From positions 1 to 61,077 of the forward strand of contig JACRIV010000072.1 in the NCBI GenBank assembly GCA_016220005.1: a stretch of DNA of 61,077 nucleotides, given 5' to 3'. Positions 4,549-50,032 of the stretch are shown in pieces; within the stretch, counting starts at the first letter, position 1, and each line of letters starts with the position of its first letter. A program made the position numbers and the translations under genes. Under the pieces are notes generated by a model that worked only from the letters and a program-made list of their open reading frames with translations, made no database searches and was not told where the DNA came from. This DNA comes from Deltaproteobacteria bacterium (lineage in GTDB: Bacteria; Desulfobacterota; Deferrimicrobia; Deferrimicrobiales; Deferrimicrobiaceae).

Positions 4549-5330
4549 CGTACCTTCTCCGGCAGCAGCCCCTTTCCGGGCCTGCCCGACAGTTTTTCCT
4601 TGGATTGCGCTTCAGAGGGGAGCGTGATGGTGGCCGTCGTGCCGCGCCCCTCCCGGCTTCGGATGATAATTGTCCCGCCGTGGTCCCGCACGATCTGCCT
4701 CACGATGGGGAGACCGAGCCCGCTGCCGTTCTTCCTCGTCGTGAAGAAGAGCCGGTAGATCTGCGTCCGCTCCGCTCTCGGGATCCCCCGGCCGTTGTCC
4801 TGGATCCGCGCGAACGGCCGCCCTCCTTTCATGCCTGTCGCCACGCGGACCCGTTTCCGGTCCTTGTCCATGGCTTCCTCGGCGTTGAGCAGGAGGTTCA
4901 GGAGCGCCTGTTTGAGCTGCTTCTCGTCGGCAAGCAGGGGAAGGGGGTCGGGGTGAAGCGCCGCCTTGAGCTCGATCCCGCGGCGGGAGAAGTCGACCTC
5001 GATGAAGCGGAGGGTCTCCGAGACCACCCGGTTCAGGTCCGTCACCACGAGCTCCATGGACGGAGGGCGGGCGAACCGGAGGAACTCGGTGAGGAGGTCG
5101 GAAAGGCGTTGCGTCACTTTCAAGTTGGCGCGGGCGGTCGACAGGAGCTCTTCCTTGCGCACCGCCTCGCTGTCGGGAAGCGCGGTGATCATCTCGACCA
5201 GGAGCTGGCTGTTGATATAGAGGGAGTTCAGGGGGTTCCGGATCTCGTGGGCCAGCCCCGACGCGACCGCGCCCAGGTCCGCGAGCTTTTTCCTCGTCCG
5301 AGTGGTCGGCACGAGGAAATTGTACAACAA
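4545..5330 (-). CDS. Soluble sensor histidine kinase
   Basis: 261 residues containing only the kinase core. HisKA has the phospho-acceptor His28 in GLAHEIRNPLN. HATPase has N (LNLLLNAEEAM), G1 (DNGRGIP), F (FFTTRKNGSGLGLPIV) and G2 boxes. There is no membrane segment, PAS or other sensor domain. The start is uncertain: the first usable codon is TTG 5330, with a weak SD, and the frame stays open further upstream without a start codon. It is followed by its NtrC-type partner and preceded by a lipoprotein gene 44 bp away. The input signal may come from a partner protein. Confidence 0.9.
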   Translation of the reverse strand: MLYNFLVPTTRTRKKLADLGAVASGLAHEIRNPLNSLYINSQLLVEMITALPDSEAVRKEELLSTARANLKVTQRLSDLLTEFLRFARPPSMELVVTDLNRVVSETLRFIEVDFSRRGIELKAALHPDPLPLLADEKQLKQALLNLLLNAEEAMDKDRKRVRVATGMKGGRPFARIQDNGRGIPRAERTQIYRLFFTTRKNGSGLGLPIVRQIVRDHGGTIIIRSREGRGTTATITLPSEAQSKEKLSGRPGKGLLPEKVR

Positions 5331-5374
5331 AATGGCGGGATTTCCGCAGGCTGGTCCGGAAAACCCCGGGGCTC

Positions 5375-6022
5375 TCAGAAGAATTCCACGGTCAGAAGGG
5401 GCGCGGTGCCCGCCCCCGCATCCGCAATCGTAACCAGGCCGGCGGCGCCCGGCACGAAATCGAGCAGGAACCGAAGCTGGAAATTGCGCAAACCCTGCCG
5501 CTGCGCCTCTTTCATGAGAGGGGTCACGTCGATCCTCACGAAGTTTCCTTCGTCCGCGGCGAAGAAGTTAAGCGTACGGAAGGAGGTCGGGGTCAGAGGC
5601 GGGGAATTGAAATCCACGGCGGTCGGGCCGGTTACGGGGTAGGTGACAAGATCCAGCAGCGTCGGAACCGGCGTCGCGAAGTCCACCCGGCTGACGAAGA
5701 CTTCGATATCCGCCGAGACAATGACGGCATTGAGCGGGATGGCGTCTCCCCCGGTCGAGCCGTCGAGCGGAAAGTCCAGGAAGGCGCGGAACTCGGGAAA
5801 GTTGATATTTCCCTCGTCGATGCCGAGAATGACGTTCCCCGTGTCTGTGGCATGAGCGATCGTGAAGGTGTTCAAAACCGGGTCGAAGGACACGTCTCCG
5901 TCGGCACGCTGGTCGCTCAGGGTCTGGCCGAAGACCGTGACGGCGGCGTTCCCCCCTCCCCCGCACCCGGCCAGGACACCCGCGAGAACGAGTACCAACG
6001 CCAGGGAAAGCAGCCTTCTCAT
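5375..6022 (-). CDS. Putative lipoprotein of unknown function
   Basis: 215 residues beginning with a classic lipoprotein signal peptide (MRRLLSLALVLVLAGVLAGC, lipid-modified Cys20), followed by a Gly-rich linker and a beta-rich, mostly uncharged domain. SD AAAGGGG precedes ATG 6022. I do not recognise the family. It lies 44 bp upstream of a sensor-less histidine kinase on the same strand, so it may be co-transcribed with the two-component pair. A link to signal sensing is only a guess. Confidence 0.75.
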   Translation of the reverse strand: MRRLLSLALVLVLAGVLAGCGGGGNAAVTVFGQTLSDQRADGDVSFDPVLNTFTIAHATDTGNVILGIDEGNINFPEFRAFLDFPLDGSTGGDAIPLNAVIVSADIEVFVSRVDFATPVPTLLDLVTYPVTGPTAVDFNSPPLTPTSFRTLNFFAADEGNFVRIDVTPLMKEAQRQGLRNFQLRFLLDFVPGAAGLVTIADAGAGTAPLLTVEFF

Positions 6023-6119
6023 CGCCCGCCCCTTTCGTGCCTTTTCCCTTCGACGACTCTGCTTATAAGATATTCAATGCGGGAGTCCGTTCCAGGTTTC
6101 CGGCAGTCTCGCCGCAATC

Positions 6120-6192
6120 GGCTCCGTCGCTCCTCGCTCCGACATCCCTGTCTCCCACTTCGTCGCGGGAGGCCCCCGCAAGGGGCACCCCG
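6120..6192. repeat. Truncated copy of dispersed inverted-repeat element
   Basis: This 73 bp matches the right half of the elements at 55742-55866 and 60479-60605: the shared GGCTCCGTCGCTCCTCGCTC, then CGACATCCCTGTCT, then the right arm CCCCCGCAAGGGGCACCCCG. The left arm and inner left half are missing, so this looks like a decayed copy. Confidence 0.75.
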
Positions 6193-6571
6193 CCTCGGCG
6201 GCTCGCCCGGCCCGGGAACGACATCTCACGGTATCCGCAAGCGAGGAGTCCGAATATGACCCACCGTGGGGGGCTCCGTATCCCCGCGGGGAATTCGGAC
6301 TCCGGAGCGTGCGCGGGCCGCTTCCCCCATAGCGGAGAAGGGGGGGATCCGAGCGGCCGGATACCATGATCGGAATACACGGACGGCGCCCCGTGCGCCT
6401 GCACTGGCCCCGGGGTGAGAGCGGACGCAACAGGGGGGTTCGACCCGTCCACCCTTGGCCTCGGCTTCCCCGATGGATCCCCAAAGACCGGCGCCGGGCT
6501 GTTATAATTGATTTATTTAAGCCGATATTTGGACGAACTCTTCCGGCGATCATTTCGGGGAAAGCGGAGCG
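6193..6571. other. Gene-free structured stretch upstream of the PBP gene
   Basis: With 6023-6192 this makes about 550 bp without a convincing gene. It contains a perfect 11-bp inverted repeat (GGAGTCCGAAT at 6245-6255, ATTCGGACTCC at 6293-6303) enclosing the palindrome TCCCCGCGGGGA. A second imperfect hairpin pairs GGCCGCTTCCCCC near 6319 with the G-run and AGCGGCC near 6354. Open frames here show no recognisable protein. A -10-like TATAAT lies at 6503-6508. Confidence 0.5.
6503..6508 (+). promoter_or_regulatory. Candidate -10 box for the PBP gene
   Basis: A consensus TATAAT 63 bp upstream of the TTG start of the penicillin-binding protein gene, in a locally AT-rich patch. No good -35 hexamer is visible 16-18 bp upstream, so support is partial. 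Confidence 0.35.
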
Positions 6572-8593
6572 TTGGCGCGATACCAGCCGTTTGAGGAACC
6601 CGCCGGGTTCCCATGGAAAAAGTTTTTTCTCCTCTTTGCGGGCATCTGCCTGTGTTTCCTCCTGGGCGCGTCGCTGGCCCTGGCCCTGCTGGCGCGGTTC
6701 GGCGACTTCCCCTCGATCGAGTCGGCGGAGGCCTACCGTCCCAGCGTCTCGTCGAAGATCTACGACCGGAACAACCATGTCGTAAGTGAAATCTACATCG
6801 AGAAGAGGACGCTCGTCCCTTATCAGGCCATCCCCCGACACGTCGTGAACGCCTTCGTGGCCGCCGAGGACGCCAACTTCTTCAGGCACAAGGGGGTGGA
6901 CTACACCGCGATCGCCCGGGCGGTGATGAAGGACATCCTGTCCCGCGGGTTCGCACAGGGCGCGAGCACCATCACCCAGCAGACGGTCAAGTCCCTCTTC
7001 CTCACCCCCGAAAAGAGCATCCGGCGGAAGCTCAAGGAGATCATCCTGGCATACCGGATCGAGAAGAAAATGACGAAGGAGGAAATCCTCTATCTCTACC
7101 TGAACCAGATCTACCTGGGCGACGGCGCCTACGGCGTCGAGGCCGCGTCGCGCGCCTATTTCGGCAAAGGGGTGGGGTCCTTGAGCGTCGCCGAGGGGGC
7201 GATGCTCGCGGGGCTCACCCAGGCGCCGAGCCGGTATTCACCCAGGAGCCATCTCGACCAGGCCAAGGCGAGGCAGCGGTACGTCCTTCGGCGGATGGCG
7301 GAGGTGGGCTTCCTCACCCAGCCGGAGGCGGAGCGCGCCTATCAGTCCCGGATCGTACTGGCCCCGCCCTCCAACTTCCGGTCCAAGGCCGCTTATTTCC
7401 TCGAGTACGTCCGCGCCTACATCCAGGAAAAGTACGGCATGGACGCCCTCTACAAGACCGAGATGCAGATCTACACGACGATCGACGGGCGGCTGCAGGA
7501 GGCGGCTCACGACGCCCTCGCGGAGGGGGTCCGCCGCACCGAGGATCGGAACAGGTACAAGGGGCTGCAGGGCGCGATCATCGCGATCGAGCCGCACACC
7601 GGAGGGGTCCTCGCGATGGTCGGCGGGGTGGACTTCGCGGAGTCCCAGTTCAACCGGGCGATCCAGGCGAGGAGGCAGCCGGGGTCCGCCTTCAAGCCGA
7701 TCATCTACTCGGCGGCCCTGGACAAGGGGAAGACGATCGTCTCCACCCTGGACGACTCCCCGATCGAGTTCGAGCGGAACGAGAACGAGATGTGGAAGCC
7801 AAGGAACTACGACGGCACGTTCCTGGGCCCCATCCCTATGCTGGAGGCTCTGGCCAAGTCCCGCAACCTGGCCACCGTCCGGCTCCTCAACGAGGTCGGC
7901 GTCGACTCGGCGATCCAGATGGCGAGGGCGCTGGGGATCGAGTCGCCGATCGAGCGCAACCTTTCCATCGCCCTCGGTTCCTCCGGCGTGACACCCCTGG
8001 AGATGTGCACGGCCTACGCGACCTTCGCAAACGGCGGGGAGCGGCCCGCGCCCTACTTCATCCGGGAGGTGCGCGACGGCTCGGGGAAGGTGCTGGAGAC
8101 CATGGAACCCCAGGTGAAACGGGTGGTCCCCCCCGAGACCGCCTATCTCACCGTGCGGCTGATGCAGGAGGTCATACGGAGCGGAACGGGGATGGCGGCG
8201 AAGGGATTGGGGGCGAACCTGGCGGGGAAGACGGGCACCACCAACGAGAACACCGATGCGTGGTTCATCGGGTTCTCCCCCGATCTGGTCGCGGGCGTGT
8301 GGGTCGGGTTCGACACCCCAAGGCCCCTCGGCGGCCGCGAGTCGGCCGCGGCCGTGGCGCTGCCGATCTGGTCCCAGTTCATGGGCCGGGCTCTCCCCCT
8401 GTTCCCCGAGCACGAGTTCACGGTCCCGCCGGGGATCACCTTCGCCCGCGTGGATCCGGCCTTGGGCAAGGCCCTTCCCCCAGGCTCGTCGGAGGGGATC
8501 GTCCTCCCCTTCAAGCTGGGATCGGTCCCCGAATCCGGTCCCGCCGGGAGGCAGCGCTCCCCCCGCAGGCAGGCCTCCGACGACTTACTCTAA
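6572..8593 (+). CDS. PBP1A-family bifunctional peptidoglycan synthase
   Basis: 673 residues. A cytoplasmic N-terminus and one membrane anchor (about 18-40) are followed by a GT51 glycosyltransferase domain with catalytic Glu99 in the EDANFFRH motif and the QGASTITQQ motif. The transpeptidase domain has SxxK (SAFK, Ser about 371), SRN and KTGTT (about 552). It polymerises lipid II and cross-links stem peptides on the outer face of the inner membrane. The start is TTG 6572 with GGGGAAAGCGGAG upstream. It stands alone, convergent with the methyltransferase gene, and is typical in length for PBP1A without the OB insertion. Confidence 0.96.
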   Translation: MARYQPFEEPAGFPWKKFFLLFAGICLCFLLGASLALALLARFGDFPSIESAEAYRPSVSSKIYDRNNHVVSEIYIEKRTLVPYQAIPRHVVNAFVAAEDANFFRHKGVDYTAIARAVMKDILSRGFAQGASTITQQTVKSLFLTPEKSIRRKLKEIILAYRIEKKMTKEEILYLYLNQIYLGDGAYGVEAASRAYFGKGVGSLSVAEGAMLAGLTQAPSRYSPRSHLDQAKARQRYVLRRMAEVGFLTQPEAERAYQSRIVLAPPSNFRSKAAYFLEYVRAYIQEKYGMDALYKTEMQIYTTIDGRLQEAAHDALAEGVRRTEDRNRYKGLQGAIIAIEPHTGGVLAMVGGVDFAESQFNRAIQARRQPGSAFKPIIYSAALDKGKTIVSTLDDSPIEFERNENEMWKPRNYDGTFLGPIPMLEALAKSRNLATVRLLNEVGVDSAIQMARALGIESPIERNLSIALGSSGVTPLEMCTAYATFANGGERPAPYFIREVRDGSGKVLETMEPQVKRVVPPETAYLTVRLMQEVIRSGTGMAAKGLGANLAGKTGTTNENTDAWFIGFSPDLVAGVWVGFDTPRPLGGRESAAAVALPIWSQFMGRALPLFPEHEFTVPPGITFARVDPALGKALPPGSSEGIVLPFKLGSVPESGPAGRQRSPRRQASDDLL

Positions 8594-8599
8594 AAAACC

Positions 8600-8695
8600 A
8601 GGGACGGTCCTGACGTCCGCTGTCGGCTTATTCCCCTCGGTCGTGTGACCGCGATCCCTAGTCTTTCTGCCAAGTCGCTCTCCAGGACCGTCCCT
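8600..8695. repeat. Inverted repeat AGGGACGGTCCTG at convergent gene ends
   Basis: AGGGACGGTCCTG at 8600-8612 and its exact reverse complement at 8683-8695, 70 bp apart. The left arm lies just after the PBP stop; the right arm encodes the last residues of the methyltransferase. The GGGACGGTCC core resembles REP-type sequences mobilised by TnpA_REP enzymes, though none is seen here. It could also act as a bidirectional terminator. Confidence 0.6.
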
Positions 8696-9449
8696 TTGCC
8701 TTCACGGCGTGGACCACCATCCTGCTGGATTCGTCGTCGAACGGGTCGCCCGAAAGGGAGCCGTAGAAATCCTTGACCCGCATCCCCGCTTTCAACAGCA
8801 TCTCGCGCAGCTCTTCCATCGAGTAGATCCGGACATCGAAGGTGGAGGAGATCCGGATTCCGTCGGGCCGGACGAGGGTATGCTCCGCCCTGGCCCGCAT
8901 GGTGCGCGGGTCGAACCGAACCGACATCCTCAGGTTGCCCGTGGGGACCTCCATCGTCTTGTCCCCATCCTCGAGGCGCGAGAGTCCCTTGCCCGCGTTG
9001 CGCAGATCGAGCAGGAGCGCCCCTCCTTCCTTCAGGCTCTTCGCCACGTTGTCCAGGACCTTCCGGTTCTCCTCGTCGCTGAAGTACCCGAAGGAGGTGA
9101 AAAGGCTCAGGCAGAGGTTGAACGCCCGGGGCCGGCAGAAGGTCCGCATGTCTTCCCGGACCCATTCCACCTGGACACCCTCCTTTTCGGCCCGGCAACG
9201 CGCCAGCCGGAGCATGTTCTCGGAGATGTCCACGCCCGTCACCTTGTGGCCTCTGCGGGCCATCGGGATGGCGTGCCTCCCCCGCCCGCATCCCAGGTCC
9301 TCGATCGCCGACCCGGGCGGGAGCGGCAGGAGGGCGAGGATCTCCTCCACTTCCGTCTCGGCGTCCCCCTCAAGCGGCCCGAACAGCTCGGGGTACCGCT
9401 CGTCGAAGATCGTCTCGAACCAGGGCCGCTGTACGGGGCTTCCACTCAT
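8658..9449 (-). CDS. SAM-dependent class I methyltransferase
   Basis: 263 residues with a Rossmann-fold methyltransferase core. Motif I is IEDLGCGRGRHAIPMA (about 48-63), followed by the acidic VDIS of motif II and later LLLDLRN. The C-terminal half has beta strands plus YSMEELREMLLKAGM, typical of small-molecule or unassigned methyltransferases. The substrate cannot be deduced. It begins 4 bp after the rtcB stop as the last gene of the RNA-repair/activase operon, so a role on RNA is possible but unproven. Its final residues overlap one arm of the repeat at 8600-8695. Confidence 0.88.
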   Translation of the reverse strand: MSGSPVQRPWFETIFDERYPELFGPLEGDAETEVEEILALLPLPPGSAIEDLGCGRGRHAIPMARRGHKVTGVDISENMLRLARCRAEKEGVQVEWVREDMRTFCRPRAFNLCLSLFTSFGYFSDEENRKVLDNVAKSLKEGGALLLDLRNAGKGLSRLEDGDKTMEVPTGNLRMSVRFDPRTMRARAEHTLVRPDGIRISSTFDVRIYSMEELREMLLKAGMRVKDFYGSLSGDPFDDESSRMVVHAVKAKGRSWRATWQKD

Positions 9450-47076: not shown

Positions 47077-48639
47077 ATGCCTGAAAACGATCTCATGCCA
47101 AGAGTATCCAAGGCCGTCACGGAACTTGCCAAGGGGATGAAGAGCGTCAGCTTCTACCCCCCGGGGCATCCCTCCCTGATCCAGACCATATCAAAAATCA
47201 TCGCCAACTTCGAGGAGATCCCCTTGCCCGCGGAGGGGCTCACGATCGACGTGACCAAGAACGCCCTTCTGTGCGGGCAGATGCCGATACCGACGCTGAA
47301 CAAGGCCGTGGCGGACCTCAACCGGGAGCTCTACCTCCGGCGGGCGAGCAAGATCATCTTCCTGCCCGACCTGAAAGCGGACGAGATGATCACGTTCCTC
47401 GGAGTCCTCAACCGGGACATTCAGGAGATCCAGGACGAGGGCGGCCTGGAGCGCGTCCTGCTCCGGGAAAAGGTCTCGAGGATCTGGGCGAACCGGGTCG
47501 ACTACCAGGGCCTGACGGAGATGCTGAAGAAGGAAGAGGAGGCGGAGGAGGCCCTCCTTGAAGAGGGCGCGGACGCGGTGCTGAAGGAGGAAACGCTGTC
47601 GTTCGTCCTCGACCAGCTGCCCGTCGAGGAACTGACGATCGAGGACCTGCTCTCCCTGATCGAGAAAGAAACCGACGCCACGGCCTACCGCGAACACGTC
47701 ATCGCCCTTTCCCGGGCCTTATATGGCGAGCGCATGGACAGGAAGATCGAGTACGCGTCGAAGGCGCTCATGATCTTCGCGCACCACATCGAACGCCCCC
47801 CCCTGGAGAACGCGGAGATCGCCAACCTCGCCCGCCTCGGGATCAAGGAGATGGCGTCCGACGAGCTCGTCTCCCACTACATCCACCTTCTCCAGGACAA
47901 GAGAGGCAGGGGCCGCAGGGAGGTCGAGACGGTGCTCGTGGCGTTCGAGGACCGGGCGGTCCGGCCGCTCCTCAAGACGCTGGCGGAGGAGGAGGACCTC
48001 CTCGTCCGGAAATCGATAGTGGAGATCATCGTCAAGATCGGGAGGCCCGCGGTTCCGGCCCTCCTCGAGAACCTGAACGACGCCCGGTGGTTCATGGTCC
48101 GCAACATGGTGACGATCCTCGGGAGCCTGGGCCTCCCCGATCTGGCCCCTCAAGTCGCCACCGTCCTCACCCACCCCGATCTCCGGGTGAAGAAGGAGGC
48201 GATCAAGGCGCTGTCGAAGCTGCCCCACCCTTCCGCCGTCACGGCGCTCGGCGAACTCTGTTTCTTCCCGGAGGAGACCGTCGCCCTCACCGCCACCGCG
48301 GCGATGTCCTCCAAGAAGGAGCCGGAGGCCGTGCTGACCCTGTACCGGCGAGTCGTCCAGAAGAAACTCTTCTTTCCCAGCTACCGTCTCGCCCACGAGG
48401 CGATCGACTCCCTGCGGGCCATCGGCACCGACGAGGCGGTCACCGCGCTGGAGGAGATCCTCGGGACGACGGCCGTCTGGGAGACGCAAAAGTTCCGCGC
48501 CATGAAATCTCACGCCCTGAGAAGCATCTCAAAGATACGCAGGCCCCGGGCGATGGGGGTGCTCGAGAAGGCGCTGAAGGCCCCGGAAAAGTACCTGAGG
48601 ATGGAAGCGGAACGCCTCCTCAGGAGAGCGGGAGGCTGA
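47077..48639 (+). CDS. HEAT-repeat protein with YPPxHP N-terminal domain
   Basis: 520 residues, soluble. Residues about 8-115 form a domain with Y27-PPGHP, ending in a G67-x2-PI turn and an F95 strand, that aligns gap-free with the N-terminus of the next protein. A charged coiled region (about 140-200) leads to C-terminal HEAT-like repeats (FEDRAVRPLLKTLAEEEDLLVRKSIVEIIVKIG, RPAVPALLENLNDARWFMVRNMVTILGSLG, HPDLRVKKEAIKALSKL). There is no known catalytic motif. It is 4 bp before the HD-GYP gene and is probably its partner. Confidence 0.82.
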   Translation: MPENDLMPRVSKAVTELAKGMKSVSFYPPGHPSLIQTISKIIANFEEIPLPAEGLTIDVTKNALLCGQMPIPTLNKAVADLNRELYLRRASKIIFLPDLKADEMITFLGVLNRDIQEIQDEGGLERVLLREKVSRIWANRVDYQGLTEMLKKEEEAEEALLEEGADAVLKEETLSFVLDQLPVEELTIEDLLSLIEKETDATAYREHVIALSRALYGERMDRKIEYASKALMIFAHHIERPPLENAEIANLARLGIKEMASDELVSHYIHLLQDKRGRGRREVETVLVAFEDRAVRPLLKTLAEEEDLLVRKSIVEIIVKIGRPAVPALLENLNDARWFMVRNMVTILGSLGLPDLAPQVATVLTHPDLRVKKEAIKALSKLPHPSAVTALGELCFFPEETVALTATAAMSSKKEPEAVLTLYRRVVQKKLFFPSYRLAHEAIDSLRAIGTDEAVTALEEILGTTAVWETQKFRAMKSHALRSISKIRRPRAMGVLEKALKAPEKYLRMEAERLLRRAGG

Positions 48640-48643
48640 TCCG

Positions 48644-50032
48644 ATGGACCGACGCGAGCAGGAACGCCTGATCACGGAACTCATCCGGGCGCTGGGGACG
48701 TCGCTCAAGAACCGGCGGATCTATCCACCCACCCATCCGCTGGTGCGCACGCCGGTCGAGCAGGTCTACAAGGACATCCTTCTCTTCTTCGCCGACCGCT
48801 CCGAGCTCGCGCTCGTCATCACCGACGGGACGATGGTCCTCGAAGGCGTCCCCATCTTCAGCCTGACCTCCTCCCTGGAGTCCTTCATGGAGCGGCTCGG
48901 CAGGATCGGGGTCCCGGCGCTCGTTTTCGAGAAAGGGCTCATGCCCGCCGACATCGACAACTTCGTGCGCTTCCTCCATGGGACGAAGGAGCAGGGGCTG
49001 CCCGTGGACCGGATCCAGGAGCTCCTTGCGCAGGCCGGCGTCTCCCACATCCGGGTCAAGCCGATGGAGAAGGAAGAGGAAGACGACCAGACGCTCGCCC
49101 GCGAGATTTACGACAACGCCGTCTCGGTGGTGGTCTCCGTCCTGAAGGACGTCCGCCTGGGGCGGATTCCGTCGGGCGCCGAGTCCGAGCGCGTGGTCAA
49201 GGACATGAGCAGCATGCTCACCCGGAACCGGGACGCCATGCTCGCGCTGACGCTCATCAAGAACTTCGACGAATACACCTACAACCACTCGGTCAACGTG
49301 GCCGTGCTCTCCCTCGCCCTCTCCGACGCACTGTCCCTGCCCGGCCAGGAGAAGATCGACGTCGGCGTCGCGGGGCTGCTGCACGACGTCGGGAAGACGC
49401 AGCTCGCCCTCGGTCTCATCAAGAAGCCCGGCACGCTCACCGTGGAGGAGTTCGAGGAGATCAAGAAGCACCCCGAGGAAGGGTTCGTCCTCCTGGGAAA
49501 GATGTCTCACATCCGGCCCGCCTCCGCATACATGGTCCGGGAGCACCACATGCGGTTCGACCGGACGGGGTATCCGCGGCCGGAGCCCGGATACCGCGTG
49601 CATCCCAACTCCCACATCATCCCGGTCGCCGACTGCTACGACGCCCTGACGACGATGCGGTCGTACCAGAAAGCCAGGTCTCCGCAGCAGTCGCTGGACA
49701 TCATCACGCGGATTGCGGGCAGGTCACTCGATCCGGAGATCGTCACCCTGTTCGTAAAGACGATGGGCAGCTACCCCGTGGGAACCCTGGTCCGGCTGGA
49801 TTCCATGGAGGTCGGCGTCGTGACGAGCGCGGGGCCTCCCGGCCAGGCGCCGAACACGGTCGTGGTGCTGTTCGACCGGAACGGAAACCCCCTCCCGCGG
49901 CCGGAGCAAGTGGACCTGGTCGGGGCGGAGAGCGCGGGAGGCACGCAGCGGAGGGCGATCCTCGGAACGGTGAACCCGAACATGTACCCGCCCCCCACGA
50001 TGGGGGCGCTCGCCTCGGCGGTGCCGGCCTAG
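48644..50032 (+). CDS. HD-GYP domain phosphodiesterase with YPPxHP N-terminal domain
   Basis: 462 residues. The N-terminal domain (about 6-125; Y27-PPTHP) is shared with the preceding HEAT protein. The HD-GYP domain (about 200-375) has H215 (YNHSVNVA), H247-D248 (LLHDVGK), H301-H302 and the GYP motif at 309-311 (FDRTGYP), the full metal set of active c-di-GMP phosphodiesterases. A C-terminal beta segment follows. It is soluble with no receiver. It probably hydrolyses c-di-GMP, with input from the N-terminal domain or HEAT partner. Confidence 0.93.
   Translation: MDRREQERLITELIRALGTSLKNRRIYPPTHPLVRTPVEQVYKDILLFFADRSELALVITDGTMVLEGVPIFSLTSSLESFMERLGRIGVPALVFEKGLMPADIDNFVRFLHGTKEQGLPVDRIQELLAQAGVSHIRVKPMEKEEEDDQTLAREIYDNAVSVVVSVLKDVRLGRIPSGAESERVVKDMSSMLTRNRDAMLALTLIKNFDEYTYNHSVNVAVLSLALSDALSLPGQEKIDVGVAGLLHDVGKTQLALGLIKKPGTLTVEEFEEIKKHPEEGFVLLGKMSHIRPASAYMVREHHMRFDRTGYPRPEPGYRVHPNSHIIPVADCYDALTTMRSYQKARSPQQSLDIITRIAGRSLDPEIVTLFVKTMGSYPVGTLVRLDSMEVGVVTSAGPPGQAPNTVVVLFDRNGNPLPRPEQVDLVGAESAGGTQRRAILGTVNPNMYPPPTMGALASAVPA

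Follow-up and report, generated by a model that had tools for sequence, protein, structure and literature searches.

An apparently undescribed N-terminal domain shared by adjacent HEAT-repeat and HD-GYP proteins in several bacterial phyla

Two neighbouring genes in the window (the whole stretch of 61,077 nucleotides of a Deltaproteobacteria bacterium that was analysed here) encode a HEAT-repeat protein (A) and an HD-GYP protein (B) that share a homologous N-terminal domain, hereafter NTD. It is a real domain and, as judged by Pfam, NCBIfam and PDB, an apparently undescribed one, and the two genes that carry it recur side by side in several phyla. Together, the findings suggest an old two-part signalling complex that has apparently never been named.

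The genes lie on the same strand with 4 nt between the stop codon of A and the start codon of B (Table 1), and a preliminary description of this DNA had rightly recorded them as adjacent reading frames, one HEAT and one HD. The C-terminal part of A matched HEAT_2 (3.4e-22, 79 bits against a cut-off of 27.7) and HEAT_PBS (4.8e-12), and A was classed as a HEAT-repeat protein on a profile score above the curated cut-off together with the helical hairpins of its model. B matched HD_5 (2.4e-23), and residues 1 to ~140 of both proteins gave nothing credible in Pfam. A third gene, C, absent from the preliminary description, converges on B and encodes a further HEAT-repeat protein.

Table 1. Positions of the genes and domains discussed, in the window unless a locus is named.
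Feature	Position	Strand	Basis
Gene A, NTD-HEAT protein, 520 aa	47077..48639	+	ORF, ATG 47077 to TGA 48639; HEAT_2 and HEAT_PBS in C-terminal part
NTD of A, residues 1-143	47077..47505	+	A-only versus B-only profile match, 141 ungapped columns; predicted elements
YPPGHP motif of A, residues 27-32, loop joining helices 1 and 2	47155..47172	+	Sequence; conservation; helices 3-26 and 32-46
Linker of A, residues 159-183, low-confidence, probably flexible	47551..47625	+	pLDDT < 50
HEAT solenoid of A, all-helical, residues 188-520	47638..48636	+	Model hairpins; Pfam HEAT; Foldseek
Gene B, NTD-HD-GYP protein, 462 aa	48644..50032	+	ORF, ATG 48644 to TAG 50032; HD_5; phmmer to PmGH 4MCW
NTD of B, residues 1-143	48644..49072	+	AlphaFold2 model
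YPPTHP motif of B, residues 27-32	48722..48739	+	Sequence; Y27 conservation
HD-GYP domain of B	49253..49741	+	Pfam HD_5 span; residue table
Gene C, convergent HEAT-repeat protein, 191 aa	50029..50604	-	HEAT_2 1.7e-16
Tandem-NTD gene, locus L150	2050-6393		
Tandem-NTD gene, locus L150	6896-11176		
Tandem-NTD gene, locus L151	2367-6611		
Tandem-NTD gene, locus L152	2530-6774		
Tandem-NTD gene, locus L154	3039-7334		

The shared N-terminal domain

The preliminary description had aligned the first 110 residues of A and B without a gap. The ungapped alignment was borne out by BLASTP (residues 10-129 against 10-129, E = 0.002), and Y27-P-P-x-H-P32, P70-I71 and F95 carry identical residue numbers in both proteins as had been described; the homology therefore stood, while its true extent proved greater, reaching to about residue 143 (~140 residues). 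The NTDs of the window are only 14% identical, which is what a chance or generic helix similarity would lead one to expect, and that reading is nevertheless vanishingly improbable. The NTD of A alone retrieved B-type NTDs of other genomes in phmmer searches, down to 2e-14. When an alignment of A-type NTDs (n=57) was compared with one of B-type NTDs (n=63) by HHalign, the profiles matched with 99.7% probability and E = 2.5e-26 over 141 columns without a gap, at ~15% identity, whereas 40 column-shuffled controls stayed at noise level (probability <= 1.3%). Both NTD sets had been recruited with a joint profile, of which the single-sequence phmmer cross-matches are independent. These cross-matches and the profile match refute chance similarity, and the identical ungapped register and secondary structure speak against it as well.

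The AlphaFold2 model of the NTD of B, computed from an alignment of A- and B-types, reached a pLDDT of 90.1 and a pTM of 0.84, with predicted helices at residues 3-26, 32-48, 76-88, 101-113 and 121-130 and strands at 54-60, 63-66, 69-71, 92-96 and 136-139. The full-length model of A (pLDDT 86.9), for which A-type proteins alone were aligned, placed helices at 3-26, 32-46, 76-87, 101-111 and 124-130 and strands at 55-59, 64-66, 90-95 and 136-140. The predicted elements thus coincide almost residue for residue and bear out a common fold at the level of secondary structure, the comparison being one of elements and not of superposed models. The predicted topology is helix, YPPxHP, helix, three strands, helix, strand, two helices and strand. 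Conservation within the domain is uneven: Y27 is near invariant (118 of 120 aligned NTDs), and P28 (77/120), H31 (82/120) and P32 (86/120) are majority residues only, position 31 being asparagine in 29 of the 120. Conserved columns are mostly hydrophobic and strongly conserved polar ones are few, the conserved polar positions being K22, Y27, H/N31, E/D103 and H135.

Database searches with the domain returned no characterised relative. With 53 diverse NTDs, no Pfam-A family matched more than 2 of the 53, all with chance-like scores, and NCBIfam gave no match. The NTD profile found no credible match among PDB sequences; Octarellin V.1 and a cytochrome trimer were rejected, being artificial or repetitive proteins that aligned over short segments. 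Foldseek with the pLDDT-90 model found nothing in the PDB at E <= 0.001, and a fold search of BFVD found nothing. A PelD-like GAF domain was discarded as a candidate since its best Foldseek E value was 0.1 and its TM-scores of 0.18-0.22 with an rmsd of ~14 Å amount to no real superposition. Foldseek with full-length A matched alphaRep, armadillo and importin-alpha proteins; this list is dominated by HEAT/armadillo proteins and is uninformative for the NTD. DUF3391 (PF11871) is an N-terminal domain of other HD-GYP proteins and resembles the NTD in preceding an HD-GYP domain; it was rejected as the identity of the NTD, for its match was sub-threshold (12.4 bits against 27.8) and fell on residues 142-174, outside the domain. 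The preliminary description had called the domain unnamed and proposed a profile search, to be judged against a characterised hit or differing predicted folds of the two N-termini; the Pfam, NCBIfam and PDB searches, by sequence and by fold, gave no convincing match, which supports the domain as unnamed, and the predicted secondary structures of the two N-termini point to no difference in fold. Publications on HD-GYP and HEAT repeats together were unrelated as judged by title, and the part of the M. xanthus inventory considered here makes no mention of an NTD-HEAT/NTD-HD-GYP pair.

The gene pair across genomes

We propose as a two-gene cassette the arrangement of an NTD-HEAT gene immediately followed by an NTD-HD-GYP gene, and the window holds such a cassette. 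With B as the only query (residues 1-200 in the phylum of the window, the full protein in GTDB species genomes), 50 distinct NTD-HD-GYP loci were recovered, the window included, and in all 50 the NTD-HD-GYP gene is immediately preceded by a HEAT gene on its own strand. The count takes in three loci (L008, L014, L018) where A is interrupted or cut by the contig end and its NTD part is therefore missing from the adjacent ORF. As a control within the genome-collection scan, the HEAT partner was present in 22/22 loci with the NTD against 0/58 HD-GYP loci without it, the latter having no HEAT gene at all. Such a count of adjacent pairs in other genomes had been proposed in the preliminary description. 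Over all loci, 73 of the 75 genes with an NTD and an HD profile had the adjacent partner, a count that is not unbiased because later loci were chosen for their NTD matches; in the two exceptions (L148, L149) the NTD-HEAT ORF overlaps further than the definition of adjacency permitted, and at L177 Pfam identifies one of the 75 as a Ser/Thr kinase and not an HD protein. In nearly all loci A and B either overlap or lie no more than a few tens of bases apart. Exact 4-bp overlaps are common beyond the closest relatives of the window, and the few-base overlaps, several of them exactly 4 bp, suggest translational coupling.

A second, more divergent type of pair was also observed (L145, L146, L147, L155, L156, L179), with a HEAT partner of ~670-790 aa and an HD partner of ~370-420 aa; several genomes, e.g. 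that of locus L039 (G311), carry it together with the first type.

When genomes were scanned with the NTD profile at E <= 1e-4, the domain was found in 66 of 148 genomes of the Desulfobacterota-like phylum of the window, in 81 of 117 of the myxobacterial-type phylum to which 'Bdellovibrio sp.' locus L052 belongs (a phylum of large genomes, probably Myxococcota) and in 30 of 60 of the phylum of WOR-3 locus L058. It was present in 0/120 genomes of the phylum of a gammaproteobacterium and 0/119 of the phylum of a Clostridium (239 in total). The pair also occurs in Zixibacteria (L046, L067), and the near relatives of the window are uncultured bacteria labelled Deltaproteobacteria, e.g. CSP1-8. The WOR-3 phylum gave 67 NTD matches, 38 of them in 19 pairs and 29, many of 600-1250 aa, unpaired, from which it appears that NTD-HEAT proteins can act with other partners or alone. 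Near the WOR-3 pair of L058, the gene at 8406-9161 is, by the look of its start, a candidate for a diadenylate cyclase (CdaA).

A maximum-likelihood tree of 74 NTDs placed all A-types and all B-types on opposite sides of one branch, so that the A/B label changes once, against 25 times with shuffled labels; the branch itself has weak support (SH-aLRT 33). The simplest reading of these sequences is that the NTD was duplicated once and that the pair was then probably inherited jointly or transferred jointly.

The neighbourhood of the pair is far less stable than the pair. A HEAT ORF on the opposite strand directly after B, as in gene C, occurs in 33 of 75 loci, among them loci of Desulfuromonadia (L043, L044) where the remaining neighbours differ, and was seen in none of the WOR-3, Zixibacteria and myxobacterial-type loci examined; C is a probable third member of the cassette in the lineage of the window. 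The divergent pgpA-cinA-recA-pilT neighbours are conserved only near that lineage and the neighbours vary elsewhere, for which reason genomic context was set aside as a guide to function.

The NTD also occurs with other domains. Tandem NTDs stand before HEAT repeats in proteins of ~1430 aa at four loci (L150, L151, L152, L154), one of which (L150) has two such genes in succession and, by Pfam, GGDEF and AAA domains ahead of the tandem (GGDEF-AAA-NTD-NTD-HEAT); a similar protein at L158 reads GGDEF-AAA-NTD-HEAT. NTD-HEAT-cNMP-PilZ proteins were found at L153 and L157, and at L160 the NTD precedes a histidine kinase. At L177 an NTD-HEAT gene (4613-6352) overlaps by 4 bp the NTD-Ser/Thr-kinase gene downstream of it (6349-9000), a predicted kinase there taking the place of the HD-GYP partner. 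By their profile matches, the partner domains of the NTD are thus putatively those of c-di-GMP synthesis, breakdown and binding for the most part, together with kinases. In one NTD-HEAT partner (L181:3998-7246), ~550 residues without an assignment precede the NTD.

The HD-GYP domain of B and its likely substrate

B is a predicted HD-GYP phosphodiesterase, probably acting on a cyclic dinucleotide. It keeps the metal ligands and the catalytic lysine (H215, H247, D248, K251, H276, H301, H302 and D330) as well as the GYP motif (G309-Y310-P311), and the catalytic residues examined are intact in 67 of 75 relatives. Its best match in a phmmer search of the PDB was PmGH (4MCW, 3.6e-20), the GAF-HD-GYP c-di-GMP phosphodiesterase of Persephonella marina (4MCW, 4MDZ, 4ME4; PMC4159591). 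In both, a regulatory domain at the N-terminus is followed by the catalytic HD-GYP domain, whose metal ligands agree but for E185; they differ in that PmGH is a homodimer with a GAF domain, whereas B has an unrelated-looking NTD, a Y-T-Y motif and a HEAT partner gene. The E185 position of PmGH is occupied by tyrosine in B (DEYTYNHS) and in 59 of the 61 relatives read there. Without E or D at this position B falls outside the E/D-T-G subfamily with eight ligands, and its tyrosine places the B family in the Y/F subfamily, one of the HD-GYP subfamilies defined by Bellini and colleagues (PMC4159591). Bd1817 of Bdellovibrio (3TM8), an unconventional, inactive HD-GYP protein in which the tyrosine of GYP is missing (PMC4159591), shares the HD-GYP fold with B, its PDB match covering residues 176-349 of B; unlike B, it has no match to the NTD profile, and it is not among the 50 NTD fold matches listed.

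It is unlikely that B acts on another cyclic dinucleotide, e.g. 3',3'-cGAMP, in place of c-di-GMP. An HD-GYP 3'3'-cGAMP phosphodiesterase (5z7c) was the second-best PDB match of B (6e-18), and cGAMP is made by a Hypr GGDEF enzyme in Geobacter (PMC6456294), both of which favour that substrate. Against it stand PmGH, a c-di-GMP enzyme, as the top match and the GGDEF and PilZ fusions of the NTD, although Hypr-type GGDEF enzymes can also make cGAMP.

The catalytic exceptions come from the myxobacterial-type phylum, where HP, HH and GYP are lost in, e.g., L172, L173 and L174. HD partners that have lost catalytic residues (e.g. HDAG, no GYP) were observed at L172:7112-8422, L173:7462-8781, L174:4407-5717, L178 and L180. 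As the HD domains sampled in this phylum often lack these residues, activity is not always the conserved function, and the pair may signal there without phosphodiesterase activity.

Putative role of the pair

The preliminary description had suggested a signalling module whose halves dimerise or read the same ligand. A signalling module is supported by the strict adjacency with its control and by proteins that join the NTD to GGDEF, PilZ/cNMP, histidine-kinase or Ser/Thr-kinase domains. For its working, the reading that we prefer, and to which we give about an even chance, is that A and B together make up an ancient phosphodiesterase of cyclic dinucleotides, a heteromeric complex joined through their NTDs. 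B would be the catalytic subunit, carrying the HD-GYP domain, and A would bring the HEAT solenoid; their paralogous NTDs, derived in this scheme from one duplication, would bind each other in place of the GAF-type homodimer of PmGH. The solenoid, possibly with the convergent HEAT protein C, would dock a partner or target and thereby set the activity or the location of the phosphodiesterase. The PmGH homodimer is built by the N-terminal GAF domain and a long helix and not by the HD-GYP domain (PMC4159591), and so offers a precedent for an N-terminal assembly domain. The tandem NTDs in the GGDEF fusions also favour contact between NTDs. Against the complex speak the weak support of the branch between A- and B-type NTDs, the unpaired NTD proteins of the WOR-3 phylum and the frequent loss of catalytic residues in the myxobacterial-type phylum, and co-operonic genes need not bind each other.

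Two other readings give the NTD a different part. It might be a sensor of a small molecule or a protein that forms a homodimer in each protein, so that both proteins respond in parallel to one signal, with a phosphodiesterase output in B and a scaffold output in A and an adjacency that serves co-expression only. The position of the NTD, usual for a sensor domain, its several outputs (HD-GYP, histidine kinase, Ser/Thr kinase, HEAT-cNMP-PilZ) and the conserved polar residues, which could line a site, are in keeping with this. However, sensing alone leaves unexplained why every NTD-HD-GYP gene found had a single HEAT partner, always in one order, and why NTDs occur in tandem within one chain, and the conserved columns are mainly hydrophobic; we regard it as rather unlikely. 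It is quite improbable that the main task of A is to inhibit or anchor B, with the HEAT solenoid touching either the HD-GYP domain or a partner in the membrane or pilus and the NTD no more than a passive fold left by the duplication. HEAT repeats are binding scaffolds, which favours such a role, and the conserved pgpA-cinA-recA-pilT genes in the relatives of the window permit a pilus link without showing one. Yet the pair persists in other phyla while its neighbours change completely, and the retention of the NTD in both proteins over 141 ungapped columns at ~15% identity argues for selection on it. The bacterial HEAT and PBS-lyase-type HEAT families (PF13646, PF03130) are like the C-terminal half of A and the whole of C and differ from A in having no such NTD; NblB and CpcE/F were rejected as relatives, since the resemblance lies in the repeats alone and scores far under the cut-offs of these families.

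Returning to the heteromeric complex, we tentatively extend it, with slightly less than even confidence, to a wider proposal. The NTD would be a new dimerisation/input fold with no relative among solved structures, and would define a family of cyclic-dinucleotide signalling proteins that spans several phyla and has been overlooked. In this family, heterodimers would link a HEAT scaffold to one of several exchangeable outputs (HD-GYP, GGDEF, PilZ/cNMP, histidine kinase, Ser/Thr kinase), and the duplicated NTD pair would either be older than the split of the phyla or have spread as a unit. The conserved two-gene, locally three-gene, cassette is a variant within c-di-GMP signalling and not a separate category.

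Many c-di-GMP enzymes have front domains that no database recognises, and a 2022 review noted that many sensor domains are still unrecognised (PMC8846402). One such front domain is now defined by sequence, has a confident predicted fold and is strictly paired to a HEAT partner in several phyla, which include relatives of the metal-reducing Desulfuromonadales and probably myxobacteria. The HD proteins of the myxobacterial-type phylum that have lost catalytic residues may be missing from c-di-GMP inventories. The pair offers a testable two-protein system with candidate residues, and its pair-mates can be recognised in uncharacterised genomes.
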